Shown here: positions 20,501 to 54,481 of the stretch, one piece after another
How the letters are laid out: each line of letters starts with the position of its first letter
Numbering within the stretch: the first letter of the stretch is position 1
Virus record (IMG/VR): IMGVR_UViG_3300013132_000059
Span: 1 to 57,465 of that record
Source of the DNA: a virus
DNA length: 57,465 bases
Reading direction: 5' to 3' (one strand)
Notes under the pieces: model-generated
The model's input: only the letters and a program-made list of their open reading frames with translations
Told to the model about the DNA's origin: nothing
The model's database searches: none
Position numbers and translations under genes: made by a program

Positions 20501-23500
20501 TTAATTTCAGTTATATTAAAGCCGATGTTTGAATACCATGATTTCCAAGGTTCTTGATTTACTAAGTCTAAGTCGTTAACAGTTACTAGACTATTTTGAA
20601 AATTAGTAGATAATGCCTGTATTTTTAAATCTTTAAGATATGAAGGCAAGTCAAAATCTGTAATTAGACTTTGACTATTTTCTATATTAGAGTATATACT
20701 GGTAAATTCTCTAATTTTTGATCTATATGGCTTTACTTCTTGAATATATTTTTCAAAATCAGGTAAATTATCGCTATTATAATTAATTTTTTGACGTAAA
20801 GATCCTACATTATGCAGTGCTTTAATAAAACTAGTTTTACTAATCCAATCTACAAATAACTGTTCTGATAACACATATCTTAATGTAACAAAGAATAATT
20901 TAAGATAAATTTGTCTACGATCATCAACTAATAGTTTGTTTTTAAGACTGTTTAAAATTATTCTAAATTCTATAGAACCAAACCCATCATATAAATTAAT
21001 GTCATATAATGATCCATCAAAACCTAAACTAGTTAAAGGGTAATCATAAAATTTTGCACTTAATTGTATGCTCCCATTTTGTCTACCAATAACTTTATAT
21101 GATCTAGTATAGTCAATGTCAATGGTATCTGAATATTTTTGTAGCAATAACCAATCTGAACCAGGATTGTTAACTTTAACCAACTGACCTATATTTACAT
21201 TTAATGTGAAAAGTTCATAAGTAGCATTAATAATATAGTCAACTTTAGTAAATTGGTTATATCCATCACTATACCAATCTACATAATTCCAAAAGTTAGT
21301 TACATCATATTCCTGAGTTTTAATTTTAGTCCAAGTTCTACTATTAGAATTATATGAAAACATTGACCATAAATTAGATTCATTGGTTCTAACTAATGCA
21401 GTCAAAGGTCTAATAGTTAGACTGGTTGAATTAATATCATATCCTTGACCAGGATTTACTATAATAATTTTAATGATTATGCCCTGATCATTAATTTCGC
21501 TTTTTAGAACAGCATCTTTTCCTAATCCAGTTATTTTTATTTCAGGAGCAAATTTATAATTTAATCCACGATTAGTAAATTCAACATCTATAATTTTACC
21601 ACTTTTTATAATTGGTTTTATAAATGCTTGTCTGTGTGATTCTGCACTTATAAATTGTAATTCATCTTCGGTATCAATAATATAGTCGTATAGCCCATAG
21701 ATACTGTTTGGTATTTCGTCTTTTTTAAAGAAATCACTTAAGTCTAGATTATCAATTTGAATATTTTTTATTTCGTAATTAAATCTTTCAATAAATTGTT
21801 TTACTGCTTCTATTCTATTAATGAACATGCTTTGTCTAGGTTTAAACTTAACACCATACTTTTGTTTAGGGCTAAGATTTATATCAGGTACAGTATACCC
21901 ATTTTCATCTGATCCAATCAAACTATCAAACCATTTCCTTTCTAATTCAGTAGGAATTTTAGTTTTTTCATTTTCACTTATAATTTTCCATTCATTATGA
22001 ATAATAAGTTTTTCTTTTTCAGGTACAGTCCAATATTGAACACTTAGAACAACATTTTTATCTTCTACAACATTATATACGTTGGCTAACCCAAACGAAT
22101 TAGGACTTAAAAATTGTATGTATTTGATACCATAGTTAATTGGATTGGCTATTTGACCAGTTATATCAACTGCATTTACTTTTCTACCATTTACTGCTGG
22201 GGTTATTTTTTTATTTTTTACCCAAAAATAGTACACATTGCTGAATGTTTTACTTATAGAATCAAATTTTCTTTTTACACTATAAATTTTATTTCCGTAA
22301 AGACTAGTTCCGCTTATATTTCTAGTGAATCCTTCTTCTGTGCCTGATAGTGTATCCCATTGATCAGGGGTATATCTAGATTCTACCCATTCATAAATAT
22401 CTATGCTAGCAGTTGGGTATAAAGAATTCCAAGTAAAATTCCTAAAGGTTACATCACCCATAGTGCTATCTAGGAACTTGGCCCTTCTTAAATCCCACCA
22501 TAACATACCTACGTGTTTATCTAACCAATTCATACCATCATCTATATTAACTTTTATAGTATTTGAGTTAGTTTGAAAATTATAAATTGCTGGATCGTAG
22601 TATGTTTTGTATTTTATTTCTTGTTCAGCAACTCCTGCAATTTTACCCTGTACTGGATCTATTATATCTACATATGATACAAGTTGACTTGTCTTTTTAT
22701 TATATAAAAATATCTTCTTAAAACCATTAATGTCAATTTTAGGTTGTTGTTCTAAATAAAGGCGCCAACTATATTCGTTATTTTTCTTTGAATACACATA
22801 AACTTTGCCGATAGAATTTGCAGCAGGAGCACCAATTATAATATTATTATTACAAGCATCAAACCCTATACCGTATTCTTCTATTGAGTTTGGGGTAGGT
22901 AACGATTCTGAGAATATATACTTAGTAATATATCTATCATATACATCAATACGTCCAGAATCTCTGTTAATTCTACTAGAATCCTCACCTATTAATAGAT
23001 CCTTACTACTATCTCCGTACTTACTAAAAATTACCAATGTTTTTTCATCGTTGGCAAATTTTAGATAATAACCATATTGTTCACCTAACACTTCATCTGA
23101 TTCTGCATTTCTATTATCAATTGTTTGTAACAATGTATAGTTTACAGGCGGGACGGTTGAATCATCTAATGCATTTTCAGTTTTATAAATTCTTACTCTA
23201 CCTTGATTAGTATAATCAACAGTTTCATATGTGCTAGATATTGCTAGAAGTTCACCACTGTCTGAAATTGCCATTGCAAAGCCAAAACGTTCAGTGCGTC
23301 CTGGCAAGTCTAATATTTGTTGTCTTTGATAAAAATCAACTTTTCTTTCATAAGCGTAAACTTTACCGCCATCATTTAAACATGCACTTAAAACCAGTAT
23401 AGATCCATCTTTATTAACATCAAAATCATATGCAAACGGTTCTTCATCACAGTCACTAGGTTCTAGTCTATCAAATATTTGAAATGGTATTTGGTTAGTG

Positions 23501-26500
23501 CTAAGGTTAATATCGGATAATGTAGCATCGTATATGTAAATTTTACCAGAAATGCTTACTCCATTGGTAGAACTTATAAACAAACTATATTGGTAACTTT
23601 CTCCTACTTGCTTTTTTGTAAATCTTATTTTGTATCCATAAAAATTATCTAAGATTGGTGTATTAGTATAAACTTGTTCAGGATTAACAAGAGATTGTCT
23701 TAAATCATAATCACCTGTTATAGATAATTTGTATATTTTAACACATCCATTAGAATTTAAATTACAACCTATGGCAATTAAGGTATTATCTTCTGATATA
23801 GATAAGGATTTACCAAAATTTGTTGTATTAGAATCTTCTATGACCTGTGATTTTATCCAGTTTAGATTACTTTTTTTATAGACTCTTACTTGATTATTAG
23901 ATGAAATTAGTAATATGTTAGCATCTTTACTGATACAAACATATTGTCCCAGTCTAGATCCAATTGTTAATATAGAATCTGATATTTCTTTTTGAGAATA
24001 TACTGGTAAGTTTTGCCATATTATATGATCGCTATTGTTATTAAACCAAACTATTTCACCATAAGGCCAAAGTTCAGTTACTGGTCTAATATATTTAGGG
24101 ACTTCTAATTGATCAATATTTTCAAATCTATATTTTGCTATTTTAAAGGTTTTAAGTGGTGCAATTCCAGGTACTTCAATTTTAGAAATTAAATTAAATT
24201 GTACAACTTTATCATTAACTTGAACAACTTTTTCTATAACTCCAATGCCTTGATTATTTTTGAAAATTATTATATCGTTTACCATTAGTTTAGGATTAAT
24301 ATTGAAAGTAACTTGCGTTCTTTTGTTAACATTTACTATATTTGTTATTACTAAATCTAAATGATTTACCCTATATATTGACCAATCATCTTTAAACTCA
24401 TTGATCTTATTTTCAAATGCACACCATATATAATCACCATCTTCTAAAATCAAAGGATCTACTAGTAAAATATCATCTTTTTTGTCTAAAGCATATTTTA
24501 CCATGTCTAATCTACAAAATCCTGGTGTTTTTAGAAATGGCCTATAATTTTCATTCACAGGCCATATATTATCAGAATAATTTTTTGGTTTTAAATATAC
24601 ATCGTTCTTAGTTTGTCGTATAACATAGTCAGTAAGAGCATTATTAATAGTTGGTACTAATTCTAATGCTTGCGGTTCTATTTTAAATTGTGATTCATCT
24701 AAGACAAATTCAACTTCTTCAAATGCATCACTTGCTCCATATTCTCCAACTCTAACAGCCCATTCTTCAATAAAGTCAATACTATCAGTATTATTAGCAC
24801 TTAGTACATCAAAAAGTTTGTTTAAACTATTTACAGTACCTTTTTCAGTAATCATTCCTTGATAAAACTTAAATTCGCTAACATCATTTTTAATAATATT
24901 TTCTAAATATTGTCTTTTTTGATAACCAATTAAATGTTGCGCTATTCTTTGTTGGTTAATATCAAAGTTATCACTGTCTAAGTCATAAAAATCAGTGAAT
25001 TGAAGAGCCTTATAATCCCAATTAGGAAGCAGGCTAGATTCAGGCTTATCCTCTATTCTTATCCAGTAATTATTATCAAATTCCTCTGATCCAGGTATCG
25101 TTTCATTTGCAGTATAATAAAATTCTTTATACTTAATGATATCACCAAGACTATAATCTGTCCAAGGAATCCATTCTTTAATTATAGATTGGTCATAGAT
25201 AAATCCTGGGGCATCAAAACTTCCATTCCAATCGATAGTCTTATACCCCGCAATTCTTATTTTTTCTTGTCTATACCCTGTTTCAAGATTATAAATTATG
25301 TCATTAAATTGACTTGTATTATCAATAATCAATACATGCTCTTTTTGAACTAGGTAAATTGCTGCACCATATATTCCAGTTTCAGTTTTAGGATATAGAC
25401 TAAACTTATTATCATATCTAACGTAACTTAGTAATTGAGGATCATATTTGACACCATCAGCACTAAAAATTTCATAAACATTATTAGTTTCTCTAAGATC
25501 ATCTACTACACTATATGAAAGATTTAAGTTAATTTTTAAGGCACTAGGACTTAATGAAATTGCTGCTGCACCACTAGAGTTTAATTCATTTAATTTAATA
25601 TAATAATTAATATCAAAAAATGAGGAAGTTATATGGTCTCTTATAGCACGATAAAATTCGCCTTCGTAGTAAACTATATTATCTTCTTTATAACTTTTAT
25701 CTGATTCCCATTCAGTATATTGATCAACTCCTGAACTCCAATTTTGTGTAGTCCAAAATAAAAATTCTTTTATACTTGTATCCCAATTAGTTATTACTTT
25801 TAAATTTGTGTTAAATTCATCAAATTCAAATCCTTGATCTTTTAAATATTCGCCATAACCTTGTAAAAAGTCTACTACCTCTTGAATACTTAACAATATA
25901 GTACCATAGTTTAACATTACAGATTCTTTAATGAACGATGATCTTAAGTTAGCATCACGTCCACCAACTATAGGCAATTCAGGTATCTTTTGTAATAAAT
26001 CATAACTTGGTAATGTGCTACTAGTATGACTTATTTTGACTCTATAAAATAAATTATTAATTTTTACTATATTACCTGCTACATATCTTTGATTAGAATT
26101 CCACTCGATATAACTCTCACTAATTCCACCAACATTAATATTATACCCAGGTTTGTCCCATGAATAATAGTAAAAATAAGGTTGTGTTTGACTATATCCT
26201 TTTATTTCATAACCCAATCCACTTTTAGTTAAGAGTTTAGTTATTATAACACCACTATAGAATAACTTTTTAATAGGAGAACTTGAATTTAAGAAAATCT
26301 TATAATTTTCTTTCGGAACAAATACCCCAGATGATGAACTTACGCTCTTACTATCTAAAATTAAATTAAATTTTTCTCTACTACTAAATCCTCCCAATCT
26401 ATGACTTAATTTGTTAGTTAAGTTTTTTAAATCATATCTATATTGATTAATTGCATTGGTATTATCACTAATCAAATAATCTGTAACATAATTAACTAAT

Positions 26501-29500
26501 CCAGATGTTTGTACTCTTGAATTATCAGAAAATATACTTGTTGTTAAAATATCCTTAAGTCTTAAACGTAGTCCTGTATCTTTATAAACAAGTTGATCTG
26601 CTTGATTTCTTATAATTTTAGATCTATCATATAATAATGCAAAAACTTTATTTGGCTGCATTAGTAAAATTGTTTTAATTAAACTGAATGCATAGTAACT
26701 ACTTCTACGCCAAGTGTTTTCTACAGGTCCTTGATCCCCAAATATAAACCCTTTATCAGTTTTTATATTAAAGATACTGGAAGTGATATTAGTTTCTATA
26801 GGATTTAATAAATTACCAATTTCGTCTACAGGAATATTTACTAAGTGTGGTCTTATAAATTTAGGATGTTTTTTAATAGGTTTATTTGGCTCTCTTACTA
26901 TAGCATCTTTTAAATCGTTCCATAGAATTAAATTGTTATTGGTATATGGTGCAGGGCCATAAACTTGATCCCACCAACTTGGTTTTATACTAAACCCTAA
27001 ACTTTCCCATGGACAAATATGTATACGATCTGTATCATAATACCATTTGTAAATACCTCTCCAAAAACCTTGTAAACTATCGCCATCATTGTTTACAGCC
27101 TCATTGTAATTGTAGGTAAAAGGATTAGAATTTAAAAAAAGTAACTGTTTAGTATAATCAGTATCAATTAATGTAGTCCATTTAAAAAAGTTAGGTGATA
27201 ATATTTTATTAAATTCTTGGAAACTGTAGGCTGTGTTTCTGTTTATACCAGGTATATAGTCGTAAATATCAAATAATTTAGGATCATATTCAACTTTAAT
27301 ATTGTTAAAAATTCTTTTTTCTAATTCTAAAATTAAATCATCTCTATTGTCATCATATGCTAATATGATACTGCCATCATGTCCTTGTATTACATTTCTT
27401 GGCTCAATTAATGTAGTATCTAAATACTTTTTAGGTTCATATTTTGGATACATTCCTAAACTTGTAGGAGTAGATGGTATAAAACAACCATCTGTTCTTT
27501 CATATTCTACTAAGGTTATTAGATCATTTTCGTTTTTTAAAGCAGTAATTCTAACAAATCCATCACCTGTAAATATGTAATCTCTGTCATGAACTAATTG
27601 TACTTCATTTAAGTACACATATAAACTTTTTGGACTGATTTCTTTTAGAGTAAAATTGCTTGACAAAGGATATTTTTCTGTTTTAGGATCTTTTACTGTA
27701 AAATTAAAAACACTTTTAGCACCATATCCTATCATGTCACTAAAATAATAAGGACTTTGTTTTGTTTTTCCTTTATTAACTATGTCTAAAACTTCGTCAA
27801 TTATTTCTCTAACTAACAGAGTTTCATTTACATTAGTGATATTGTATAAAAAACTTCTTTTAAATTTACCATAATCGTCTCTAGCCTGATCAATGCTTTT
27901 TACAATACTGGCATTTTTATCAGTTAAATGATATAAACTTAAATTTAAACTTCCACTGTGTTGTACGAACTTAGTTCCAAAACTGCTTAAATTAGATATA
28001 TCTCTTAAATTTCCACTACCTGGATATATTCCCTCAAAGTTAGGCAAATGATCAATTATTGAGTCAACATGATCAATAATTTCACCTAAAGTAAAATTTC
28101 TAATTTTATTATTTTCAGGATTATTTTGAAAATTTAACGGAAATTCATAGTGACCATTGTTGTTCTTTCTCTGTTTAGCATAACATTTTATTGATACAAT
28201 ATCAGATTCTAAAATATCATTATCAAGTATAACAATTTTATATTCAATATCGTTTAGAACATTGTAATATTTTTTATCTAATCTTATACCATTAATATAA
28301 ACTTTTACAATTAAGTCATCTAAATTATTAATATCATCATAAACATCAATTAAAAATTCATTCCTAGTATTATCATTGTATATTCTTATAATAGGTTGTG
28401 TATTTTCTATTCTGCACTTAGTCCATCCATTTACTAGTTTTTCTTCTCCTACTGGGGAGAAAACTTTTAGAAATTTATTATCAATATTTTCTACAACAAT
28501 AGATTCATTAACTTTGTATTGATAAGTTTGATCACTTAAATCAAAATTAAATAAAATATCGCCTATATTATTGATATTCTTATAACTAAGTGCAAAGCCA
28601 AGTTCCTTATCCTGTGTTCCTGAATTTTGTGAATAAGAAAATATTTTTGTTCCTTTAAAAGTTGAACCAGTATATTTAAAATTATCATTTAAAGAAATAC
28701 TGTCTTGATCAAATAGATCAAAAAATGGACTTTGATTTACTGAGGATTTAGTTTGGGCAAAGATCCAATCGCTGCCATCAAACCAAAACATCTGACCGGC
28801 ATATTGGTTTCCTAACATGACCAATGCACATTCATTTAACATAGGCTCAGTATCTGGTTCTAATGCTAAATGTATTCTTCTTGAAGTTACTCCTGTATCT
28901 TCATCGTATAAATTCAGAAATTCTACTTTATAAACTCTGTTTTTAACCAGTATATCTTTATCTGCATTAAAGATTACTCTATGACCGCTTACTAGTTCTA
29001 CACCATCTATATAAAAACCTAAAGCACCTTCTACAGTACTAAATGCATCTTTAGTAAAATTATCAACTAAATCTACATTCTTTTTACTAAAAGATCCAAA
29101 ATTAAATAATTTAATATTAGGTTTAAATTCAATTATCGGTCTTGTGCCCCTTTGTGCTTGATCAAATATTGGCTGTTTTCCTAAAATTTCAGCAGTTTTT
29201 ACTATGACATCTTGATGAAACCATCTATTGTACCTACTCCAAGGGTTACGATCTCTACTTGCTCTATTAATTGTTATATAATCTTTTTTAAGAGCAGCAT
29301 ACTTTACTTCGCTGTATGGTAATTGATCAAAATTAGATTCATCAAAGTTCACAGTAAAATTTTCTGTGTAAGTTGCGGCTAGTTCTAAACTTTTTTCTCT
29401 AATTAATTGTATTGACTCACCTACACCTTCAACATAAAATATTTCATCTTCATATTCTTTTGGTGTCACTTGTCCTACAAACTTAATCTTCATGCCGTTT

Positions 29501-30390
29501 GTTAGACTAATACCGTTACTCAAACTAAAATTTTTCTTTCCTATAAATTCTTCTTCAACATTAATTTTAGTATTTTCAATTATATCAAATATTTTTATTA
29601 TACCACTTGTATCAATATTATTTTCACTAACATAATATAAGACATCTGGAGCATCCATAGGAACTTGAAAAGTTATTACACCTTCAGTTACAGCAAAATT
29701 ATCTATTCCTTCTAGATATCTAAATTCGGACCCAGTAACTCTATCAGTCTTAATACTAAATGGCTCCGTCAATGAAGATATATCAAACTTATAAGTTTCA
29801 CCTCTATATAATTTTAGTACTGGATTTCTTGTTAATCCATCTGGGCTAAAGAGATAAGCAAAATTATCGCCTTCATCTACTGTGGTAATTGTATAGGTAC
29901 TAACGGTATTAAGTATTTTTGTTCCACTAACAGGTACAATATCAGGACCAAAAGGTAACCAATAATACTGTAAGTAGTTTACAATTTTATCCCAATCAAT
30001 ATGAGGTTCCCAACTATACATCTCTTGTTGATTAAGTCTTTGATGATTATCAGTAATTCCACCTAATACATTAATGGTATTGATATAATCCAAGTAGTCC
30101 TTAAAAAAGTTTATATTTCCTAGATTATCTTGAGAAACTAAAGATGGTTCTAGTTGATAATCTTGTCTATCTTTTAAGGGTGCTTGCAAAAATACATCTG
30201 ATTTTGTTACAGACTTAGCATTTTGTCTACCAATGTAACCATTAAGACGCCGTACAGTTCCATTTTGAATTAAATTATCTACAGTTGCAGCAAGGAATTT
30301 TTTGTTAGAATCAGATCTGAAAAATCTTGGTAGAAATCTTTCTGATTTTCTTTTTTCATTACCATCAATAGGAACTCCAAACTCTTCCAT
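17548..30390 (-). CDS. Giant virion structural protein, 4280 aa
   Basis: A single open frame of 12.8 kb. Residues 1-150 (FLPRFFRSDSNKKFLAATVD, SWEPHIDWDKIVNYLQYYWL) match openings of very large structural proteins in marine T4-like phages. Residues 177-268 are a cupredoxin-like segment related to that in the collagen fibre but without its ligands. Three W/Y-rich carbohydrate-binding-like modules lie near 1424-1469, 1555-1600 and 1738-1782. About 2130-2540 is a seven-blade-type beta-propeller of FG-GAP-like repeats (GKSLSISEDNTLIAIG, YGIGFDACNNNIIIGAPA). Four GxGY...P.I motifs lie around 2850-3330. The ATG overlaps the gp6 stop as TAATG. By position it may replace T4 gp7 or gp8-10 in the baseplate; I see no direct similarity to those. 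Confidence 0.8.
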   Translation of the reverse strand: MEEFGVPIDGNEKRKSERFLPRFFRSDSNKKFLAATVDNLIQNGTVRRLNGYIGRQNAKSVTKSDVFLQAPLKDRQDYQLEPSLVSQDNLGNINFFKDYLDYINTINVLGGITDNHQRLNQQEMYSWEPHIDWDKIVNYLQYYWLPFGPDIVPVSGTKILNTVSTYTITTVDEGDNFAYLFSPDGLTRNPVLKLYRGETYKFDISSLTEPFSIKTDRVTGSEFRYLEGIDNFAVTEGVITFQVPMDAPDVLYYVSENNIDTSGIIKIFDIIENTKINVEEEFIGKKNFSLSNGISLTNGMKIKFVGQVTPKEYEDEIFYVEGVGESIQLIREKSLELAATYTENFTVNFDESNFDQLPYSEVKYAALKKDYITINRASRDRNPWSRYNRWFHQDVIVKTAEILGKQPIFDQAQRGTRPIIEFKPNIKLFNFGSFSKKNVDLVDNFTKDAFSTVEGALGFYIDGVELVSGHRVIFNADKDILVKNRVYKVEFLNLYDEDTGVTSRRIHLALEPDTEPMLNECALVMLGNQYAGQMFWFDGSDWIFAQTKSSVNQSPFFDLFDQDSISLNDNFKYTGSTFKGTKIFSYSQNSGTQDKELGFALSYKNINNIGDILFNFDLSDQTYQYKVNESIVVENIDNKFLKVFSPVGEEKLVNGWTKCRIENTQPIIRIYNDNTRNEFLIDVYDDINNLDDLIVKVYINGIRLDKKYYNVLNDIEYKIVILDNDILESDIVSIKCYAKQRKNNNGHYEFPLNFQNNPENNKIRNFTLGEIIDHVDSIIDHLPNFEGIYPGSGNLRDISNLSSFGTKFVQHSGSLNLSLYHLTDKNASIVKSIDQARDDYGKFKRSFLYNITNVNETLLVREIIDEVLDIVNKGKTKQSPYYFSDMIGYGAKSVFNFTVKDPKTEKYPLSSNFTLKEISPKSLYVYLNEVQLVHDRDYIFTGDGFVRITALKNENDLITLVEYERTDGCFIPSTPTSLGMYPKYEPKKYLDTTLIEPRNVIQGHDGSIILAYDDNRDDLILELEKRIFNNIKVEYDPKLFDIYDYIPGINRNTAYSFQEFNKILSPNFFKWTTLIDTDYTKQLLFLNSNPFTYNYNEAVNNDGDSLQGFWRGIYKWYYDTDRIHICPWESLGFSIKPSWWDQVYGPAPYTNNNLILWNDLKDAIVREPNKPIKKHPKFIRPHLVNIPVDEIGNLLNPIETNITSSIFNIKTDKGFIFGDQGPVENTWRRSSYYAFSLIKTILLMQPNKVFALLYDRSKIIRNQADQLVYKDTGLRLRLKDILTTSIFSDNSRVQTSGLVNYVTDYLISDNTNAINQYRYDLKNLTNKLSHRLGGFSSREKFNLILDSKSVSSSSGVFVPKENYKIFLNSSSPIKKLFYSGVIITKLLTKSGLGYEIKGYSQTQPYFYYYSWDKPGYNINVGGISESYIEWNSNQRYVAGNIVKINNLFYRVKISHTSSTLPSYDLLQKIPELPIVGGRDANLRSSFIKESVMLNYGTILLSIQEVVDFLQGYGEYLKDQGFEFDEFNTNLKVITNWDTSIKEFLFWTTQNWSSGVDQYTEWESDKSYKEDNIVYYEGEFYRAIRDHITSSFFDINYYIKLNELNSSGAAAISLSPSALKINLNLSYSVVDDLRETNNVYEIFSADGVKYDPQLLSYVRYDNKFSLYPKTETGIYGAAIYLVQKEHVLIIDNTSQFNDIIYNLETGYRQEKIRIAGYKTIDWNGSFDAPGFIYDQSIIKEWIPWTDYSLGDIIKYKEFYYTANETIPGSEEFDNNYWIRIEDKPESSLLPNWDYKALQFTDFYDLDSDNFDINQQRIAQHLIGYQKRQYLENIIKNDVSEFKFYQGMITEKGTVNSLNKLFDVLSANNTDSIDFIEEWAVRVGEYGASDAFEEVEFVLDESQFKIEPQALELVPTINNALTDYVIRQTKNDVYLKPKNYSDNIWPVNENYRPFLKTPGFCRLDMVKYALDKKDDILLVDPLILEDGDYIWCAFENKINEFKDDWSIYRVNHLDLVITNIVNVNKRTQVTFNINPKLMVNDIIIFKNNQGIGVIEKVVQVNDKVVQFNLISKIEVPGIAPLKTFKIAKYRFENIDQLEVPKYIRPVTELWPYGEIVWFNNNSDHIIWQNLPVYSQKEISDSILTIGSRLGQYVCISKDANILLISSNNQVRVYKKSNLNWIKSQVIEDSNTTNFGKSLSISEDNTLIAIGCNLNSNGCVKIYKLSITGDYDLRQSLVNPEQVYTNTPILDNFYGYKIRFTKKQVGESYQYSLFISSTNGVSISGKIYIYDATLSDINLSTNQIPFQIFDRLEPSDCDEEPFAYDFDVNKDGSILVLSACLNDGGKVYAYERKVDFYQRQQILDLPGRTERFGFAMAISDSGELLAISSTYETVDYTNQGRVRIYKTENALDDSTVPPVNYTLLQTIDNRNAESDEVLGEQYGYYLKFANDEKTLVIFSKYGDSSKDLLIGEDSSRINRDSGRIDVYDRYITKYIFSESLPTPNSIEEYGIGFDACNNNIIIGAPAANSIGKVYVYSKKNNEYSWRLYLEQQPKIDINGFKKIFLYNKKTSQLVSYVDIIDPVQGKIAGVAEQEIKYKTYYDPAIYNFQTNSNTIKVNIDDGMNWLDKHVGMLWWDLRRAKFLDSTMGDVTFRNFTWNSLYPTASIDIYEWVESRYTPDQWDTLSGTEEGFTRNISGTSLYGNKIYSVKRKFDSISKTFSNVYYFWVKNKKITPAVNGRKVNAVDITGQIANPINYGIKYIQFLSPNSFGLANVYNVVEDKNVVLSVQYWTVPEKEKLIIHNEWKIISENEKTKIPTELERKWFDSLIGSDENGYTVPDINLSPKQKYGVKFKPRQSMFINRIEAVKQFIERFNYEIKNIQIDNLDLSDFFKKDEIPNSIYGLYDYIIDTEDELQFISAESHRQAFIKPIIKSGKIIDVEFTNRGLNYKFAPEIKITGLGKDAVLKSEINDQGIIIKIIIVNPGQGYDINSTSLTIRPLTALVRTNESNLWSMFSYNSNSRTWTKIKTQEYDVTNFWNYVDWYSDGYNQFTKVDYIINATYELFTLNVNIGQLVKVNNPGSDWLLLQKYSDTIDIDYTRSYKVIGRQNGSIQLSAKFYDYPLTSLGFDGSLYDINLYDGFGSIEFRIILNSLKNKLLVDDRRQIYLKLFFVTLRYVLSEQLFVDWISKTSFIKALHNVGSLRQKINYNSDNLPDFEKYIQEVKPYRSKIREFTSIYSNIENSQSLITDFDLPSYLKDLKIQALSTNFQNSLVTVNDLDLVNQEPWKSWYSNIGFNITEIKISDSGSGYLNRPIIEFEGPCTRPAKARAFIVKGSIAKIEILDQGEGYFIPPKVIINSNISKDGTIAKAYAVIGSNLIRTNKISMKFDRYLKEKFEDIRPITIEDTFEGNNVQTIFRLRYKPNLNSNTVVVKINEQDQVIGSFNINPLTSLSRGFTEYYAEIVFVEPPDDNSIIKVTYQKDFVHLNALERIYHYYDPQSGMIGRDFAQLMNGIDYGGVNIIGVGFEKPNSWDGVYGWGEKAWDASVPTDDEIYDTIIDGGNLNASSAYRTASGLRADDIIIDGDGFITPNTSPAPEEMLPGHVVDSVAITVFERSLTTSSNITSNNFVSDGVNKSFKISQYPNNKNAIIVKINNHILKPNIDYKFNYDNLIVILNDPAPISSVISVTSLGFNGENLLINDLQVVSENTNTIITDVDWQENIVAYTLVSGDITNHELFRTENLQTLDNKIGIRFPFELEIGQVVNYSIFLGDTLNQSIVSRETIVSNGTSKKYYLNNPVGKKIPLDPNTIVRINDIILNSTDSFKYTLSNNNLVYDIPAGKADIDIYSLNDYIIYINGEQVELGIGYTLDLINSKLNIKTNYYKDQAEVIVTVIKDADYFIRTDTDGTYIQFKSAYTAGSEIEVIAMFNHDILNIERKYYIIEPKLNNFFNSVYYLSLVQISAGIFTFDREVLDSSYIWVTKNKKLLTPNIDYILLDDKKSIRIAGQPSPTDKFGIITFSGNVVRNPVSFMKFKDMLNRFHYKRITRNRTTNLEVDLHYNDKELFVEDPSKINNAPGVLYVNGERIEYYFRVGNRIGQLRRGTYGTGVPTVHKKFTKVYDIGDSETVPYEDEDIIYRISDVDFNDSTKTITIPFVANKNNIEVFIGTRRLKKNQYILHNKDVHPESPEGDEVQLAEFTTDGINHGTTSNRIGYVVLKEMPLPNIPITVVIKKLTYWGDPDKSLSESNNKVAYFLKYNVENIVGTELSADSGLYSADSDDIIMDEE

Positions 30391-46209: not shown

Positions 46210-47142
46210 ATGAAAATCTTAGAAATAATTGGTGCTTTATCAAGAGTTGGTGGATATTTAATGAATCCTGTAACTACTAAAGGAATATCTCAAACGGCTA
46301 AACTGTCTAAAGACACATTGCCTTTTAAAAATGCTGCTAAAGCAACTAAAGCTGGAGAAAAGGCTGCAAAAAACATGCGTAAGGTTATACCTTTCGCTAG
46401 TAAAGGTGGGTGGATTGAGAAAACTCTGACTAAGTCTTTTGTAAACAGAAATCTTAAAGCTCTCAATGCTGCTAAAGCAGAAATTGCTCGTAATGGAACA
46501 CAGGTATTTGGTGATACCATATTCAAATTATTTTGGGCAGCGAACATTTGGGACGCAGTCACTGATTATTATGCAGCAAAGCAAATATTATTAGAAAATC
46601 CACCTCCTGATGCTGATGCTCAGTTGAAAAAATTACAAGGTCAATTTATGGCACAAGTTTTATTACCTGGAATAGCCATGGGTGGTGCAAAATTATTAGG
46701 AATGATTCCTAATGCATTGGCCAGCGTAGCAAAGTCATCACCGGGAACTACATTACCTAAATTGGGTATGACTATAAATGTAGCCACTGATTTCATAGTT
46801 AGAGCAGGAGCAGCCGGTGCACTGGCAGTATTCATGACTGATGAAGGTAAACAAAAAATTTCAGAATGGTTAGGTGGAGTTATAGATGGTCTAGGATTTG
46901 TTAGTTCTCCATTGTTTACTCTACTTGAATATGCAGTACCGGCATTAGAAATGGCCACAGGTATGAAGGCTCCACAGGTGGTTAAGAATTTTGTAGCGCA
47001 ACCAAAAGCACCTGCTGCTGGTGCTCAAGGTGGTTCAGATCAAAGTGGAGTTGCAGGATCTGTACTAGGCGCACTGGCAGGTGGCGGCACCTTGGATGAT
47101 ATTGCAGCCACCAAATTTGCAGATATGGTCACTAAAAAATAA
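46210..47142 (+). CDS. Hypothetical protein with basic N-terminus and hydrophobic segments, 310 aa
   Basis: No family recognised. Residues 20-90 are basic and Ala/Lys-rich (AAKATKAGEKAAKNMRKVIP). Hydrophobic stretches of 16-21 residues lie near 146-166 (FMAQVLLPGIAMGGAKLLGM), 194-209, 228-247 and 281-292, the last as GSVLGALAGGG. The mix suggests a membrane-active or membrane-associated protein, perhaps an internal protein released with the DNA. There is no signal peptide. It converges with the gp26 frame, one base apart (47142/47144), with no terminator between. An internal Met18 is an alternative start if the upstream motif is a promoter. Confidence 0.6.
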   Translation: MKILEIIGALSRVGGYLMNPVTTKGISQTAKLSKDTLPFKNAAKATKAGEKAAKNMRKVIPFASKGGWIEKTLTKSFVNRNLKALNAAKAEIARNGTQVFGDTIFKLFWAANIWDAVTDYYAAKQILLENPPPDADAQLKKLQGQFMAQVLLPGIAMGGAKLLGMIPNALASVAKSSPGTTLPKLGMTINVATDFIVRAGAAGALAVFMTDEGKQKISEWLGGVIDGLGFVSSPLFTLLEYAVPALEMATGMKAPQVVKNFVAQPKAPAAGAQGGSDQSGVAGSVLGALAGGGTLDDIAATKFADMVTKK

Positions 47143-47143
47143 A

Positions 47144-47376
47144 TCACACTAAAGGTAACCCACTCTTTTTAGTATTTTCTATATTGTTCTTGATAATGTC
47201 ATTGAGTATGGCACGATCTTCTGCGCTATATACATGAAACAAATCCTCGGCAGTGACACCACCTCTCATGTACCAACTTATAGTAAAAATATCGTCTTTA
47301 ATTCTTTTTGTGGCTAATTCCATATCCTTGAAAAAATCTTCAAGTTCAGAATCTGGGATATAAATTAGCCTCTGGC
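47144..47376 (-). CDS. Start-less -1 frame after gp26: tail assembly chaperone-like extension
   Basis: An open frame with a stop at 47146-47144 that has no ATG, GTG or TTG before a Met well inside it. It reads RQRLIYIPDSELEDFFKDME, later ISWYMRGGVTAEDLFHVYSA, EDRAILNDIIKNNIE and NTKKSGLPLV. The WYMRGG-V-T and EDRAIL..IIK..IE..KK patterns look like a real conserved protein, resembling what follows gp26 in other T4-like phages. It lies in the -1 frame relative to gp26 and is open through the slippery run at 47377-47386. A -1 shift would give a 353-residue fusion (276 gp26 residues plus 77). Alternatively, an ATT codon overlapping the gp26 stop (TAATT, 47367-47363) could start it, with AGAGG just upstream. 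Confidence 0.7.
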
Positions 47377-48204
47377 GAAAAAATTTGCCTGATCCATTGT
47401 TATACTGATTTTACTTTGATGACTGCACTCTGGACATTGTACATCTTGTTCTGGAATATCCCATTGACGTTTATTTGCTTCTAGTTTTTCTTTTATTTTT
47501 TTATAAAATTCTTTGTCACTATTTCTAATCCATTCACTGATCATTTCTTTATCATCTACCAGTTGATCAGGTAATTGAACATGTTCTATACTAATTTCAA
47601 ATAGTTCAACTTGCATTTCTGCTATACGTTTGTAGATATCATCTTGAGTTTGCAGTGTTTGTTCTTCGTTGCCAGCACTTTCCATCTTGCTAAGTTGATA
47701 TAGCATTTTTTGTAGTTTGTAATTTTCTACATTAAACTTAGTAACTTCTTCATAGCGCAAAGGTCTAATTGTTACTTGTAGTTCACCTAGATCAATTTTT
47801 CCATCGTAGACCTGTTCACTTAGGTATGATAATACTTGCCCCAAATTCACAGTGTAATCATTCATACTTTGACAGTTTGGACATCTATGCATAACGTCCA
47901 TCTCACTGCCATAAGTGGCTATTCTTATAGCAACAAGTAAGCAGTCAACATCAATACTGGGCATATTCCAAGCATTTTTAATATATGGGCAGCAACTTTC
48001 AATAACTTTTACACTACTTTCACCGTTAAATAAAGCATCAGGCGTTTTCATCAATATTTCGTCCATACCAGTCATACCAAAAATTGGGGCATTTGCACTG
48101 TTACCGACAAAATCTTGTTCACCATAGTAGGCACCTTTGCTGGGTAAAGCAATGTAAATTTTAGGTTGTCTAAAGTATTTCTGTAGAGGGTTTCCTTGTG
48201 CCAT
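47365..48204 (-). CDS. gp26: Baseplate hub / tail assembly protein gp26
   Basis: 279 residues. Begins QKYFRQPKIYIALPSKGAYY, then GMTGMDEILMKTPDALFNGE and SVKVIESCCPYIKNAWNMPS, the T4-type gp26 pattern (T4 gp26 has 208 residues). Two Cys-x2-Cys knuckles, C108-C111 (HRCPNCQ) and C257-C260 (VQCPECSH), are spaced to form a zinc ribbon. GGAG precedes the ATG by 5 bases. The last codons contain the slippery run at 47377-47386. It lies directly opposite the tape-measure-like gene, the place where tail assembly chaperones with frameshifted forms are found in lambda- and P2-like phages. Confidence 0.85.
   Translation of the reverse strand: MAQGNPLQKYFRQPKIYIALPSKGAYYGEQDFVGNSANAPIFGMTGMDEILMKTPDALFNGESSVKVIESCCPYIKNAWNMPSIDVDCLLVAIRIATYGSEMDVMHRCPNCQSMNDYTVNLGQVLSYLSEQVYDGKIDLGELQVTIRPLRYEEVTKFNVENYKLQKMLYQLSKMESAGNEEQTLQTQDDIYKRIAEMQVELFEISIEHVQLPDQLVDDKEMISEWIRNSDKEFYKKIKEKLEANKRQWDIPEQDVQCPECSHQSKISITMDQANFFARG
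47377..47386 (-). promoter_or_regulatory. Putative -1 ribosomal frameshift site (AAATTTTTTC)
   Basis: Read on the minus strand in the gp26 frame as GCA AAT TTT TTC, it contains two overlapping canonical X-XXY-YYZ heptamers: A-AAT-TTT (47386-47380) and T-TTT-TTC (47383-47377). A one-base back-shift at either gives the same downstream frame, which is open for 77 codons and encodes a conserved-looking protein. The gp26 stop comes four codons later. Confidence 0.65.
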
Positions 48205-48261: not shown

Positions 48262-51200
48262 ATGGCCAATGATGACGATAGAAAAGCCGCAGCAGCGGCC
48301 AAAGAAGTCAGCAGTGCCTTTGGAGGTGTATCCAAGGTCATAGGTAGAATTGTACCTGGTTTTAGTCAATTGGGTACAGAACTCGATGGCATGACTAAGG
48401 CCTTTACTATCTTAAGTAATACAGGTAACGCATTTAACAATGATATGATAGGTATGCGTGCGGCTGCTGCTCAGGCACGCATGACATTGGATGAATATGC
48501 CAAGGTTGTTGAAGATAATCGTAAAGCATTTACAGGTTTAGGTGGTAGTGTTAGCCAAGGTACTAAGGTATTTGGTGAATTTAGTAAATCATTTTTTGAA
48601 AGTGGAATTACTGAAAATCTTAGACAGATGGGTTATACCAGTAAAGACCTAAATGAAATACTGGCAACACAAATAGGATTTCAAAAATCTACTACAGATA
48701 ATAGCATAGATGGCCAAATGCGTACGGCTAAGGCTGCTACTGAACTTGGTCAAGAAATGGATCTTGTGGCCAAGTTAACTGGTGTTAGTCGTAGAGAGCA
48801 GGAAGAAAAACTTAAAAAGGCTGCTGTAGATGGTCAAGTAGAAGCCAAGTTTAGGTTAATCGGTGCTCAACAAGGTGCCGATGCAGAAAAAGAAGCACGG
48901 GCCAATTATGCCAAACAGATCCTTGCTGCTGATGCAATGGGACAAGGACAACTGTTTAAAGAATTCTTTGCCACAGGAACAGCAACCAGTCAAGAAGCGC
49001 AGGAGCAACTAGCATTATTTGGTGATGCTAGTATGAAAACCGCAGAGAGTGCTCAGCAATTGAGTCAGGCTCAAATAGAACTTAGCAAGAGTTCAATGGA
49101 ATCTGCCAAGATTGCTAACATGAAGAATCAGTCAGATACTACACTAATGACCATTGCTGCCACCGGTGTAGGTAGTGCCAGTAAGGCTGTTATAAAGAAT
49201 ATTGAAATTAATGATGCTGCTTATCAAGGCATGAAAACTTTCATGAAGGGTACAGAAGATGTAATCGAAGCCATGAAAAAGCAGAAAGATGCTATCATTG
49301 CAGAACAACAGAAACGAAATACATTTACTGAAACACTAATTACAACCAATAATAGGCTACAGGATTTTAGAGCAGGTCTTGTTAAGGCATTTGTTGAGAT
49401 TGTTAATAAGAGTGGTGAAACAGGTACTCTCAAAACTGTTAATACTTTTGTAAAACAACTACCTGGATCAGTTGATGCTAAAACAACCAATCAAGAATTA
49501 CTGGATAAGTTCAAGATTGATAAAGGCAAGGATAACCTTGCCAATAGAACAGAAAATGTTCTAACTGAAGGACCTATTGCTGATTTCTTCCAGGGTGTTG
49601 ATACACTGGCAAAAGAAGGTATACAGGCAGTAATCAAAGGTGGTCTAAAGTTAATTGAAGTTGGCAGTGATTTACAAAAGAGTGTGGAAGCAAATCGTCA
49701 ACAGGCATCAGGTATCCCGACAAAAACTGAACCAACAAAAACTGATCAACCTCCACTCAAGAGTCGTGAAGGTGGCAGTATTGAAATGGCTGGTACCATG
49801 TTTGAGGATTGGGGCAAAGGCACTCTAGCAGAATTACACGGACTAGAATCAGTAATTAAGCCAGATCAAATGATGAACTTTGCTAAGGGTATGAGTCAAC
49901 AAGGTGCTAGCACTGCCTTTAACAATATGAAAGGTATGTTGGCAGGTCAAAATAAAGACACAACAAAAGGTATCGATATTGCCAAACTTGTTGGTGATAT
50001 TAAGACTAGTGTAGGCAAAGTTGAGATCATTAATTGGCCCAAAGATTTAATTAGTGAAGTAGAAATTAAAGCACCACCAGCAGCAGGTGCAGCAGCAAAA
50101 CCTGCTGAATCTAAACCCAGTACAACAGAAGAAGATAAAGCCAAGGCTGCTGCTGAGGCTAAGGAAAGAGAAAAAAGAACAGCAGAAGAAAGAAGAAAAG
50201 ACGAAGAACAAGAAGCCAAGTTTAGAATAATTGGCATTCGTGATGGTGCTGAAGCAGAGAAAAAGGCTCGTGATGATTATAACAAACAAAGAGAACAACA
50301 AGAATCTAGTACACAATCACGCACAGAAAAGGCTGCTCGTGCTGCTGAAGAAGTTACAATTAAGAGTGGTGATACATTAACAAGTCTTGCTAAAAAATAT
50401 AATATCAGTGTAGAAGAATTGATGAAGGCTAATCCTGCTATCAAGGATGCTAATAAGTTTACAGCAGGTGCAAAATTAATTATACCAAGTGTAGAGAAAA
50501 AAGAAACAACTACTAATGATATTGCCAAGAAGGCACAGACAGAAGCAGAACAAGCGCAGGTTAAACAGCAAGAACAAGAAGCCAAGTTTAGAATGATTGG
50601 CATAGAAAAAGGCGAGCAAGCAGAGAAAAAAGCTCGTGAAGATTATGCTAAAGAACAAGCACAACAAGCAGCCCTAGCCAAGTGGCGTGAGGATGAGTTA
50701 AAGATTAGAATAACAGGTATACGTGAAGGTGCTGATGCAGCCCAACGTATGCGTGATGCTATAGAAAAAAGAAATCAAGAAGACACAGTCAAAGTTTCTA
50801 AAACTAGTGAAACTAAGGTAACTGTAAATGGTAAAGATGTAGATCCTAATAGTAAAGAAGGTCAGATAGTTTTAAAACAAATGGAAGATAGTAAGGCCAG
50901 ATTAGAAACTATGATGAATAGTCTAATGAATGGTGTTGTAGAAAAACGCACTGAACCAAAGCAACGACCTACAGAAGTAAAAATGTCTGATATGCCAAAC
51001 TTTGACAATTTTATAGCAAAGTTACAAGGCAAGTTGACTACAAGTTTTGAATCAAAAAATACTGAAACAAAATTAACTGTAAATGGTAAAGATGTAGATC
51101 CCGATAGTGCAGAAGGCAAAGAGGCTATGGCTCAATTAGATGAAGCCAAGTCAAGAATGTTTGGACTTTTTGGAAATATAAAAACTAATTTTGAGGATGT

Positions 51201-52731
51201 AGAGAAACTGTCCAAAGAAAGTAATGAAGAATTAAAAAGTATGTTCACTGACATGATTCCTATAACAGAAATGCAGAGTCAGCAAAGTGAATTTAAGAGT
51301 AACTTTACTGATGAGCAGAAAAAATTCATAGATGATTATCAAGGTATGAGCAAAGATAATCAAGATTTTATGAAGTCTGCACTAGAAAGAAGCAATGGTA
51401 TTGATCGTGAAAGTATAGAAAAACACAATGATATTGTAGCAGATTTACAAAAGAAGAAAAACGAAAGAGAATTAACTGCTGAAGAAGAACATCAATTAAG
51501 TGAAAGTGAAGCCATAGCACGAAATATTTCTGATGATGTTAGACGACGTCAAGAACAACTTGATATGATCAATAATATGTCTTCTCTAGCAGATCAAGTT
51601 GAGTTGGAAAGATTAGATGATTATGCACGTAAAGAACTAGCAACGATGCAAGCATCAGATGCAGAAAAGTTAGATGCAACTAAGGCTGCTAATGATCTGA
51701 TACATGCACAATTCTTATTAGCTAATGATGCCATACTTGATAGTGTTGGAGGTATGACAGATGCTGCCATTGCTGCTCAAGATGTTTTTATGCAGGAGAT
51801 CAATACATTATTTGATATGCCTAGTGATGCAGCAGCAGAACATCAACAAGCATTATTAGAAGAAGCCAATGCATTATTTGATATTCCTGAGAGTGCTGAT
51901 ACTGCGGTTAAAACCAGAGGTATAGGAGGTCTAGGTGGTGAAGCCATAAATCAAGCAGTACAGGATCTAGCAGATCAAGTACAAGGGTTAAAAGAGTTTG
52001 AAGAAGATGAAGGTGGTGAAGCCATTGGTGGAGAAATGGACAGTGCCTTTGCAAAGGATGAGGATAGTTATGTAGCACAAGCACTTCAAGATTTTCAAGA
52101 TTTAATTCCTGATAGTATTGTAGATGATGCAGCCTTTGCATCAGGTCCCGGTGATGCCAGTGCAGCGGGATTTGATGCATATGCGCCAAGCGATGTAAAT
52201 GCAGCAGGTATAGATTTTGCTGACGGTGGTCCTAATGATGCTAGCGTAGCAGGTATTGATTTTGTTGCAGAAGGAACTAAAAAGATTGAATCTGCAATGA
52301 AGTCTTTAGAAGGTAGCTTGCCTCAGGCCAAGTCATTAGAAAAAGAAGGCCCTAAATCTACTCCAAACTATAGTAGTATTGACATGGGAGCATTTACATT
52401 AGGTCCAGATGGTATGCCTATTCCCAAGGCTAAAGCACAAGGACAGGCTGCTGCCAATGCTGCAAAACAAGAAAAAGATGAAAAGAAATCTGAGGATAAA
52501 AAGGCTACGCAAGCCAGTGTTCGTGCAGCAGATAATGAAATAGACAAAGATAATGAAACTAAAAAAGAAGGTGAAGGTGAGAAAAAAGTCACTAAAACTC
52601 TAGATGATGTAGTAAAGGCTCTAGAAGTATTAAATAGTAACGTAGGAAAATTGACCAGCAAGGTTGAAGAGTCTGCCAAACAACAGGTACAGGCTACAAG
52701 GAGTTTGAATGGCAATCTTTACAATATGTAA
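48262..52731 (+). CDS. Tape-measure-like tail protein with LysM domain, 1489 aa
   Basis: The N-terminal 500 residues are helical with Ala/Gly-rich stretches (SSAFGGVSKVIGRIVPGFSQ, ALFGDASMKTAESAQQ), as in tape measure proteins. A LysM peptidoglycan-binding domain lies at about 699-745 (IKSGDTLTSLAKKYNISVEE, ending LIIP). A 25-residue motif, EAKFR.IGI..GA.AEK.AR, occurs four times: near residue 194 and at about 650, 770 and 811, around the LysM. A second unit, TVNGKDVDP with a following helix, occurs twice (about 853 and 937). The rest is acidic coiled-coil (LTAEEEHQLSESEAIARNIS). T4 gp29 has only 590 residues. Position next to gp26 and before the portal supports a tail length/ejection role; a pure ejected protein is the alternative. 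Confidence 0.65.
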   Translation: MANDDDRKAAAAAKEVSSAFGGVSKVIGRIVPGFSQLGTELDGMTKAFTILSNTGNAFNNDMIGMRAAAAQARMTLDEYAKVVEDNRKAFTGLGGSVSQGTKVFGEFSKSFFESGITENLRQMGYTSKDLNEILATQIGFQKSTTDNSIDGQMRTAKAATELGQEMDLVAKLTGVSRREQEEKLKKAAVDGQVEAKFRLIGAQQGADAEKEARANYAKQILAADAMGQGQLFKEFFATGTATSQEAQEQLALFGDASMKTAESAQQLSQAQIELSKSSMESAKIANMKNQSDTTLMTIAATGVGSASKAVIKNIEINDAAYQGMKTFMKGTEDVIEAMKKQKDAIIAEQQKRNTFTETLITTNNRLQDFRAGLVKAFVEIVNKSGETGTLKTVNTFVKQLPGSVDAKTTNQELLDKFKIDKGKDNLANRTENVLTEGPIADFFQGVDTLAKEGIQAVIKGGLKLIEVGSDLQKSVEANRQQASGIPTKTEPTKTDQPPLKSREGGSIEMAGTMFEDWGKGTLAELHGLESVIKPDQMMNFAKGMSQQGASTAFNNMKGMLAGQNKDTTKGIDIAKLVGDIKTSVGKVEIINWPKDLISEVEIKAPPAAGAAAKPAESKPSTTEEDKAKAAAEAKEREKRTAEERRKDEEQEAKFRIIGIRDGAEAEKKARDDYNKQREQQESSTQSRTEKAARAAEEVTIKSGDTLTSLAKKYNISVEELMKANPAIKDANKFTAGAKLIIPSVEKKETTTNDIAKKAQTEAEQAQVKQQEQEAKFRMIGIEKGEQAEKKAREDYAKEQAQQAALAKWREDELKIRITGIREGADAAQRMRDAIEKRNQEDTVKVSKTSETKVTVNGKDVDPNSKEGQIVLKQMEDSKARLETMMNSLMNGVVEKRTEPKQRPTEVKMSDMPNFDNFIAKLQGKLTTSFESKNTETKLTVNGKDVDPDSAEGKEAMAQLDEAKSRMFGLFGNIKTNFEDVEKLSKESNEELKSMFTDMIPITEMQSQQSEFKSNFTDEQKKFIDDYQGMSKDNQDFMKSALERSNGIDRESIEKHNDIVADLQKKKNERELTAEEEHQLSESEAIARNISDDVRRRQEQLDMINNMSSLADQVELERLDDYARKELATMQASDAEKLDATKAANDLIHAQFLLANDAILDSVGGMTDAAIAAQDVFMQEINTLFDMPSDAAAEHQQALLEEANALFDIPESADTAVKTRGIGGLGGEAINQAVQDLADQVQGLKEFEEDEGGEAIGGEMDSAFAKDEDSYVAQALQDFQDLIPDSIVDDAAFASGPGDASAAGFDAYAPSDVNAAGIDFADGGPNDASVAGIDFVAEGTKKIESAMKSLEGSLPQAKSLEKEGPKSTPNYSSIDMGAFTLGPDGMPIPKAKAQGQAAANAAKQEKDEKKSEDKKATQASVRAADNEIDKDNETKKEGEGEKKVTKTLDDVVKALEVLNSNVGKLTSKVEESAKQQVQATRSLNGNLYNM
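50209..51110 (+). repeat. Coding repeats around the LysM domain
   Basis: gaagccaagtttagaat recurs near 50212 and 50578, with related copies near 48841 and 50697, encoding the EAKFR-IGI motif. gtaaatggtaaagatgtaga recurs near 50824 and 51079. The copies are close enough to recombine, and the first lies 1.4 kb away in the N-terminal part, so the module has been copied within the gene. Confidence 0.75.
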
Positions 52732-52741
52732 GGCATAATAT

Positions 52742-54481
52742 ATGAGTTGGCGAAGATATTTCACACCTGTTAACAACGATGATCAAGGTGGTAATTTAAG
52801 TCCATTAACTACTAAAAATGGTAATAGACCTGGACCTGCACGTAGCAACTACAGCAGTTTTCTTCCTGACATTTACACTGGTACCCCTAATCGTATTGAA
52901 AGATATATGCAATATGATACAATGGATATGGATCCAGAAGTTAATAGTGCCCTTGACATACTTGCAGAATTTTGTACACAAAAGAATAGAGAAAATAATA
53001 CAACTTTTAGCCTAAGTTTTAAAGATCGTGCCACAAATACAGAGATACGTGTGCTACGTGAATACTTACAACAATGGTTTAAACTACAACAATTTGACAC
53101 AAGATTTTTCCGTATAGTAAGAAATACTTTAAAGTTTGGTGATGCTTTTTTTATTCGTGATCCTGAAACACAAAAGTGGTTTTATATAGATCCTAGCAAA
53201 TTAGTTAAAATTATTGTTAACGAAAGTGATGGTAAAAAGCCAGAACAATATGTTATACGTGACATAAATCCTAATTTTAAAAATCTTGTAGCAACTCAAA
53301 TACAACAAAGTCCGCATCAAACTAACAATAGAGGTAGTAATTATATTGCTGGTGGTGGTATGGCTCGTGGGGCTACAGGAGCATATCCAACTCAGTATGG
53401 TGATCGTTTTAGTTTGAACGAAAATGAGCAGGCAATTGATGCTGCTCATGTAATACACTTGAGTTTAAGTGAAGGCCTTGACAACAACTATCCATTTGGT
53501 AATAGTCTTCTTGAACAAGTTTTTAAAACATACAAGCAAAAAGAATTACTTGAAGATGCTATTCTAATCTATCGTATACAACGTGCTCCAGAACGTAGAA
53601 TTTTCTATATTGATGTGGGAAATATGCCCAGTCATATGGCTATGAGCTTTGTTGAGCGTGTAAAGAATGAAATACATCAGAGACGTATACCTAGTCAAAA
53701 TGGTGGCGGCGCCAACATTATTGACAGTGCCTATAACCCATTAAGCATAGGTGAAGACTACTTCTTCCCACAGACAGAAGGAGGTAGAGGAAGTAAAGTA
53801 GATACACTAGCAGGTGGTACAAACCTTGGTGAAATTGATGATTTAAGATATTTTACAAATAAATTATTTAGAGCATTACGTATACCCAGCAGTTATTTGC
53901 CCAGTGGTCCAGATGATGGACAGCAACAGTACAATGATGGTCGTGTAGGCACTGCTTATATTCAAGAACTACGTTTTAACAATTACTGTATGCGACTACA
54001 AAACCTGTTGACTAGTGTGTTTGATGAGGAATTTAAGAGATTTTTACATTATCGTGGTGTAAACATTGATACTAGTCTATTTGAATTAAAGTTTCAAGCA
54101 CCACTTAATTTTGCTGCTTATCGTCAAAGTGAGATGGATGGACAGCGCATCAACACCTTCAATACCATACAGGCTGTGCCCTATATCAGTAAGCGTTTTG
54201 CCTTGAAGAGATTCCTTGGTTTAAGTGAAGAAGAGATGGCGGAAAACGAAAACTTATGGCGTCAAGAGAAAGGCATGGCACCTATTACTGGCACTGATGC
54301 TAGTGGTGAACTACGTGGTGCAGGACTAAGTGCAGCAGGTATTGACAGCGATTTGGAGATGGCAAGTGATACTACAGCACCAGAGGATATGACAGCAGGT
54401 ATGCCTGGAAGTATGCCTCCAGGAACCGATACAGGTATGGGAATGGCGGCTCCAGCAGCGGCCAGCCCAGTGCCAATGTAA
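52742..54481 (+). CDS. gp20: Portal vertex protein gp20
   Basis: 579 residues (T4 has 524). Opening SWRRYFTPVNNDDQGGNLSP, then FLPDIYTGTPNRIERYMQYD, MDMDPEVNSALDILAEFCTQ, and the strongly conserved LLEDAILIYRIQRAPERRIF, YIDVGNMP. QEGGRGSKVDTL-type residues (TEGGRGSKVDTLAGGTNLGE) and FRALRIPSSYLPSG follow. It forms the dodecameric DNA channel and starts prohead assembly. The C-terminal 50 residues are Met/Pro/Gly-rich and probably disordered. Ten bases separate it from the tape-measure-like gene; its TAA is part of the next ATAAATA motif. Confidence 0.97.
   Translation: MSWRRYFTPVNNDDQGGNLSPLTTKNGNRPGPARSNYSSFLPDIYTGTPNRIERYMQYDTMDMDPEVNSALDILAEFCTQKNRENNTTFSLSFKDRATNTEIRVLREYLQQWFKLQQFDTRFFRIVRNTLKFGDAFFIRDPETQKWFYIDPSKLVKIIVNESDGKKPEQYVIRDINPNFKNLVATQIQQSPHQTNNRGSNYIAGGGMARGATGAYPTQYGDRFSLNENEQAIDAAHVIHLSLSEGLDNNYPFGNSLLEQVFKTYKQKELLEDAILIYRIQRAPERRIFYIDVGNMPSHMAMSFVERVKNEIHQRRIPSQNGGGANIIDSAYNPLSIGEDYFFPQTEGGRGSKVDTLAGGTNLGEIDDLRYFTNKLFRALRIPSSYLPSGPDDGQQQYNDGRVGTAYIQELRFNNYCMRLQNLLTSVFDEEFKRFLHYRGVNIDTSLFELKFQAPLNFAAYRQSEMDGQRINTFNTIQAVPYISKRFALKRFLGLSEEEMAENENLWRQEKGMAPITGTDASGELRGAGLSAAGIDSDLEMASDTTAPEDMTAGMPGSMPPGTDTGMGMAAPAAASPVPM

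Follow-up and report, generated by a model that had tools for sequence, protein, structure and literature searches.

The window, a virus record of 57,465 nt, carried a gp26-like gene on its minus strand (positions 47365–48204) whose short product was 279 aa long. This product matched the Pfam family T4_baseplate (PF12322, E 3e-17) and PHROG 150 (E 1e-18), to which T4 gp26 and gp51 also belong. The 3' end of the gene read GCA AAT TTT TTC GCC AGA GGC TAA. It contained, in the gp26 frame and ahead of the stop, a canonical X XXY YYZ heptamer, T TTT TTC (47383–47377, minus strand), which covered the codons Phe275–Phe276 and is the proposed -1 slip site. The gp26 stop codon, TAA (47365–47367, minus strand), was separated from this site by three codons. 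A second heptamer, A AAT TTT (47380–47386, minus strand), overlapped the first. The -1 frame, also on the minus strand, continued for 77 codons and a TGA (47144–47377; coding part 47377–47147, stop 47146–47144). This extension (RQRLIYIPDSE...KKSGLPLV) was predicted to be all-helical and had no ATG, GTG or TTG near its beginning. Joined to gp26 through the slip site it would give a fusion of 353 residues. The first-pass annotation had described the same 3' end, the heptamer T TTT TTC, the start-less frame of 77 codons and the two product lengths of 279 and 353 residues, and all were recovered on the minus strand.

The surrounding gene order was that of RaK2-like jumbo phages (compare 121Q), with the portal gene, a large divergent ORF, gp26, the gp46/47 nuclease genes, the late sigma factor and the baseplate module. 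The portal protein gp20 was encoded at 52742–54481 on the plus strand (PHROG 213). Between it and gp26, on the plus strand at 48262–52731, the divergent ORF of 1489 aa occupied the slot of a structural protein of RaK2, 121Q and PA5oct. A LysM domain was located at residues 699–742 of this ORF, in addition to repeated segments. The ORF was conserved in the clade and its length was highly variable among close relatives (704 aa and more, some ending at the edge of the locus). The first-pass annotation had called it tape-measure-like. It is large, divergently oriented and conserved in the clade, and is a plausible tape measure candidate, but neither Pfam nor PHROGs recognised it as a tape measure protein. 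The annotated tape measure of Atu_ph07, gp701, was about 200 aa long and gave no help in identifying that of the window. On the other side of gp26, a convergent ORF of 310 aa without a family match (46210–47142, plus strand) had its stop only 1 nt away from that of the extension. Farther away, an ORF of 4280 aa (17548–30390, minus strand) adjoined the baseplate gene in the gp6 position and corresponded in its location to the very large structural gene in 121Q.

In the 32 larger ORFs of the window, totalling 17,995 codons, 158 in-frame X XXY YYZ heptamers were counted, and only the two of gp26 were followed, beyond the stop, by over 50 open codons in the -1 frame. An open stretch of 79 codons was found at 15% of random positions of the window. 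Such a stretch alone is common, so the argument for a frameshift rests on conservation in relatives.

Conservation of the proposed slip site among gp26 relatives

By tblastn, gp26 matched 89 phage records, every one less than 60% identical. The extension matched Atu_ph07 (E 1e-9) and Phosso (E 4e-5), with alignments beginning exactly at the slip codons. IMG/VR contributed 24 and 19 loci with identities of 62–94%, and more loci came from cyanophages and other relatives; none was found in contigs of prokaryote genomes. The distinct gp26 loci in the resulting sample numbered 120 and represented jumbo phages, cyanophages, KVP40-like phages and metagenomes.

The heptamer T TTT TTC was present in the gp26 frame in 116 of the 120 loci and T TTT TTT in another 2, which makes 118 loci with a slip site. 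The -1 frame was open in 117 of these, the remaining locus ending at a contig edge, and the slip site was located 1 to 21 codons from the gp26 stop. The two loci devoid of the heptamer were those of the Ackermannviridae VP-1 and ECML-4. In VP-1 (L056:1267-2195) a -1 extension follows gp26 and the junction reads GTT TTT CGC TAATG; in ECML-4 (L057:1252-1956) the extension is also in the -1 frame, the end of gp26 reads GAA ATT TTC ATT TAA and there is no ATG. In a very distant gp26 of an uncultured phage of 595 kb (LR756511, L060), the slip site preceded the stop by 23 codons and the stop overlapped an ATG.

The first-pass annotation had pointed to both overlapping heptamers. Both are present in the window and T TTT TTC is conserved, whereas A AAT TTT is replaced by AGT TTT in six loci of the window clade (L014, L015, L020, L028, L037 and L039), and it was rejected as the slip site. 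The annotation had also proposed a frameshift reading, with an alignment across relatives as its check, and had noted that the text of the -1 frame looked conserved. This reading held in the alignment, where the in-frame slippery run is conserved, the -1 frame is homologous and open, and no start codon is conserved. The extension is homologous to those of Atu_ph07, Phosso and the RaK2 group.

In 8 of the 118 loci, namely Atu_ph07, Phosso, 121Q, KVP40-like phages, SNUABM19 and one uncultured phage, the gp26 stop is overlapped by an ATG that lies in the frame of the extension. In these eight loci a free extension protein may be made in addition to the fusion, by coupled reinitiation. The existence of relatives with an ATG-started separate gene and no slippery run had been named in advance as evidence against a frameshift. 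The eight loci do have the ATG, yet all of them keep the heptamer; among the 120 loci the heptamer is lacking only in the two Ackermannviridae. In several relatives the extension has been entered as a gene of its own. The 'baseplate hub assembly catalyst' gp51 annotated in the cyanophages S-RIM8 (L054:2232-2369) and S-RIM4 (L055:2193-2324), of about 45 aa, corresponds only to the C-terminal part of the gp26 -1 extension. The true beginning of this small cyanophage 'gp51' is probably the slip site.

Selection on the slip site and on the -1 frame

The codon preceding TTT ended in T in 118 of 118 loci, though it encoded S, N, A, H, D, R or G. In the remainder of the same genes, none of the 109 Phe-Phe pairs was written TTT TTC. 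In the window clade, 12 codons were invariant among 102 invariant residues (Met and Trp left out), and TTT275 and TTC276 were among these 12.

The short segment between the slip site and the gp26 stop was compared in the three frames by pairwise codon counts among 17 loci of the window clade, which share ancestry so that the counts are phylogenetically non-independent. In the 0 frame, 18 of the differences were synonymous and 213 nonsynonymous; the corresponding counts were 119 and 115 for the -1 frame and 45 and 208 for the +1 frame. The pattern, a much larger silent share for the -1 frame than for the 0 frame, was seen again in cyanophages. The first -1 codon was CGN (Arg) in 103 of the 118 loci, where each of the four possible third bases occurred (CGC, CGG, CGA and CGT), and the gp26 residue at the same place in the 0 frame was mostly A, G, E, V, S or D. 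Codon 277 showed four different bases at its second position, which was the case of 8 codons among the 279. Changes that are largely silent in the -1 frame and not in the 0 frame imply that the -1 frame is read, and selected as protein, upstream of the gp26 stop. For the extension as a whole the median dN was 0.23 and the median dS 1.7 (dN/dS about 0.14); judged by its substitutions, the extension evolves as a protein. Comparison of the loci establishes selection both on the -1 frame and on the heptamer.

These observations bear on the possibility that the extension is made by itself as a small protein, through reinitiation or from a non-AUG start, the ATT overlapping the gp26 stop, which the first-pass annotation had put forward as the rival to a frameshift. 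Many genes of the window do overlap their next gene in the -1 frame, and the ATG found at the overlap in eight of the 118 relatives and the annotation of the extension as its own gene in several of them are in keeping with such an origin. In the window clade, however, the supposed start varies between ATT, ATC and ATA, with no conserved ATG, GTG or TTG, and in 40 of the 118 loci the stretch from the slip site to the tenth codon beyond the stop contains none of these three. Neither an ATT start nor any start located at the stop or after it accounts for the selection on the -1 frame ahead of the gp26 stop, where Arg is kept and the 0 frame varies, and the conserved T TTT TTC would be left without a reason. 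A separate protein is thus very unlikely, and the ATT start was discarded.

The fusion might also be produced by transcriptional slippage on the run of six T, with an extra U in some of the mRNAs, rather than by ribosomal slippage. The T run is conserved and one inserted base would give the same frame. Six T is short for polymerase slippage, and the run is just six T in 116 of the 118 loci. Moreover, the tandem-slip phase T TTT TTC is always present, though the conserved Phe-Phe also fixes the phase. We consider this origin very unlikely. An unused frame left open by chance past an ordinary stop, however common open stretches may be, has practically no probability given a homologous extension under selection and a heptamer conserved in very divergent phages.

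The preferred reading is a -1 slip on T TTT TTC, which very probably produces gp26 in two forms, a short and a long member of a tail assembly chaperone pair. Candidate stimulators of the slip were searched for on both sides of the site. On the 3' side, an RNA hairpin (GGCTAAT...ATTAGCC; 47312–47370, minus strand) was predicted at -19.2 kcal/mol with a z score of -3.9, starting 6 nt after the slip site, and it is a plausible candidate for a frameshift stimulator. A hairpin at that place was present only in the window and its closest relatives (L008–L010, z -4.0 to -4.6). Strong structures 3' of the slip site were predicted in Atu_ph07 and the KVP40-like phages, several other members were without any, and no clade-wide conserved downstream structure was detected by alifold. 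Upstream of the site, a Shine-Dalgarno-like element was absent in the window clade and frequent in cyanophages.

Relationship to gp26 and gp51 of phage T4

Both T4 gp26 and T4 gp51 are T4_baseplate (PF12322) proteins, gp51 being longer by a C-terminal piece, and comparison of the profiles establishes that the domain shared by the two forms of the window protein is homologous to them. The cyanophage fusion, when read through the slip site, aligned with T4 gp51 nearly from end to end with the junction included (HHalign E 4e-19), and the cyanophage extension alone aligned with T4 gp51 at E 7e-9. PHROG 634 contains the end of T4 gp51 together with the small cyanophage 'gp51'. The RaK2 group has an extension homologous to the one in the window (HHalign E 2e-7). 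The profile match of the window and jumbo phage extensions with those of cyanophages or T4 gp51 was weak (E 0.003–0.08 overall and 0.003–0.07 against gp51), so that the link of the window extension to them rests mainly on position. No significant match identifying the extension was obtained in Pfam, PHROGs or a sequence search of the PDB. AlphaFold models were obtained with a pLDDT of 78 for gp26 and of 82 for the extension, the latter as four helices; Foldseek searches with the two models returned nothing at E <= 0.001, and no solved chaperone was alike.

The -1 frameshift is a classical feature of tail assembly chaperones. The type represented by lambda G-GT, P2 E-E' and many tailed phages was described in a 2016 review as widely conserved 'except T4' (PMC5009743). 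The gene of the window resembles this type in being a tail assembly gene with a slippery heptamer. It differs in belonging to the T4 gp26/gp51 family and not to that of gpG, and in having its large structural neighbour in divergent orientation and not downstream. T4 gp26 and gp51 are themselves listed as hub assembly chaperones (PMC3004832), and the annotation of Octan calls both of them tape measure chaperones. As quoted in PMC10885494 and PMC12846349, Vladimirov, Gautam and Davidson (2022, Virology 566:9) assigned the chaperones of T4-like phages to the gp26/gp51 gene family. Passages of PMC10885494 describe some T4-like phages with a short gene and a fused long gene in place of the frameshift, and passages of PMC12846349 mention poly-T slip signals in the short chaperone genes of T4-like phages. 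The latter also present the chaperone frameshift of Vandenendeviridae and Andersonviridae, which like that of the window uses a poly-T -1 site where the short chaperone gene ends, but in other phage families and with the motif GTTTTT. Within a partial coverage of the literature, no paper was found on a gp26 frameshift in RaK2/Atu_ph07-like jumbo phages or in the window clade.

The first-pass annotation had suggested that a T4-like gp26 with its extension would be the equivalent of the lambda chaperone pair, and the homology with T4 gp26 and gp51 through PF12322 and PHROG 150 supports it. The comparative evidence makes a strong case that the gp26 frameshift of the window is a real instance of the known chaperone mechanism. 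Most likely, the two products are the short and long tail assembly chaperones of a jumbo phage of the T4 superfamily, frameshifted as in lambda G/GT. We propose that most ribosomes would terminate at the TAA and release the short form of 279 residues. A minority would slip back by one base, both tRNAs re-pairing on T TTT TTC (from Phe-Phe to Phe-Phe), and would read 77 more codons into the long form of 353 residues, which would thus be a C-terminally extended version of the same protein. The slip is expected to occur in the infected cell at some rate, possibly with stimulation by the hairpin, and the two forms would divide the work between them. If this division follows lambda G/GT, coating of the tape measure protein would fall to the domain common to both forms, and the rare long form would use its helical extension to bring in subunits of the tail tube or hub.

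Distribution of the proposed frameshift in the T4 superfamily

Cyanophages such as S-RIM8 and S-RIM4 and the KVP40-like phages resemble the window in having T TTT TTC within the last gp26 codons and an open -1 extension. They differ by an extension that is only weakly similar by profile and to which annotators have given a gene of its own, with a start farther downstream. In T4, Octan, Aes508 and Miro, in contrast, gp26 ends without a slip site and gp51 is a second full gene, where the window has a single gene with a slip site. T4 gp51 shares with the window the domain of PF12322 and PHROG 150, and its C-terminal extension stands in the place of the frameshift extension. In a tree of the gp26 domain, which was unrooted and included some long branches, the T4-type gp26 and gp51 grouped together (91/92), apart from the frameshifting forms, and gp51 was a firm clade (100/99). 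This grouping is expected if the two T4 genes replaced one frameshifting gene. It appears reasonably likely that a frameshifted gp26 is the general state of the T4 superfamily, found in jumbo phages, cyanophages and KVP40-like phages, and that T4 genes 26 and 51 arose by a duplication in which one copy lost the extension and the other fused with it in frame. Such a duplication, if true, would explain the long-noted 'except T4'. With a slip site in most of the sampled relatives and two genes in T4, the exception of T4 to the G/GT rule can be put to the test as a secondary change.

This analysis corrects how a core tail gene is annotated in many jumbo phages and cyanophages. In some of them, such as RaK2 and PA5oct, the extension is currently missing from the annotation; in others it appears as a hypothetical protein with no relation to gp26 or as a truncated 'gp51'. 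Among the phages with two full genes, the arrangement of the pair is variable: in the Klebsiella phage Miro (L059:440-1734) gp51 and gp26 are in tandem on one strand with overlapping ends, while the T4 pair is divergent.
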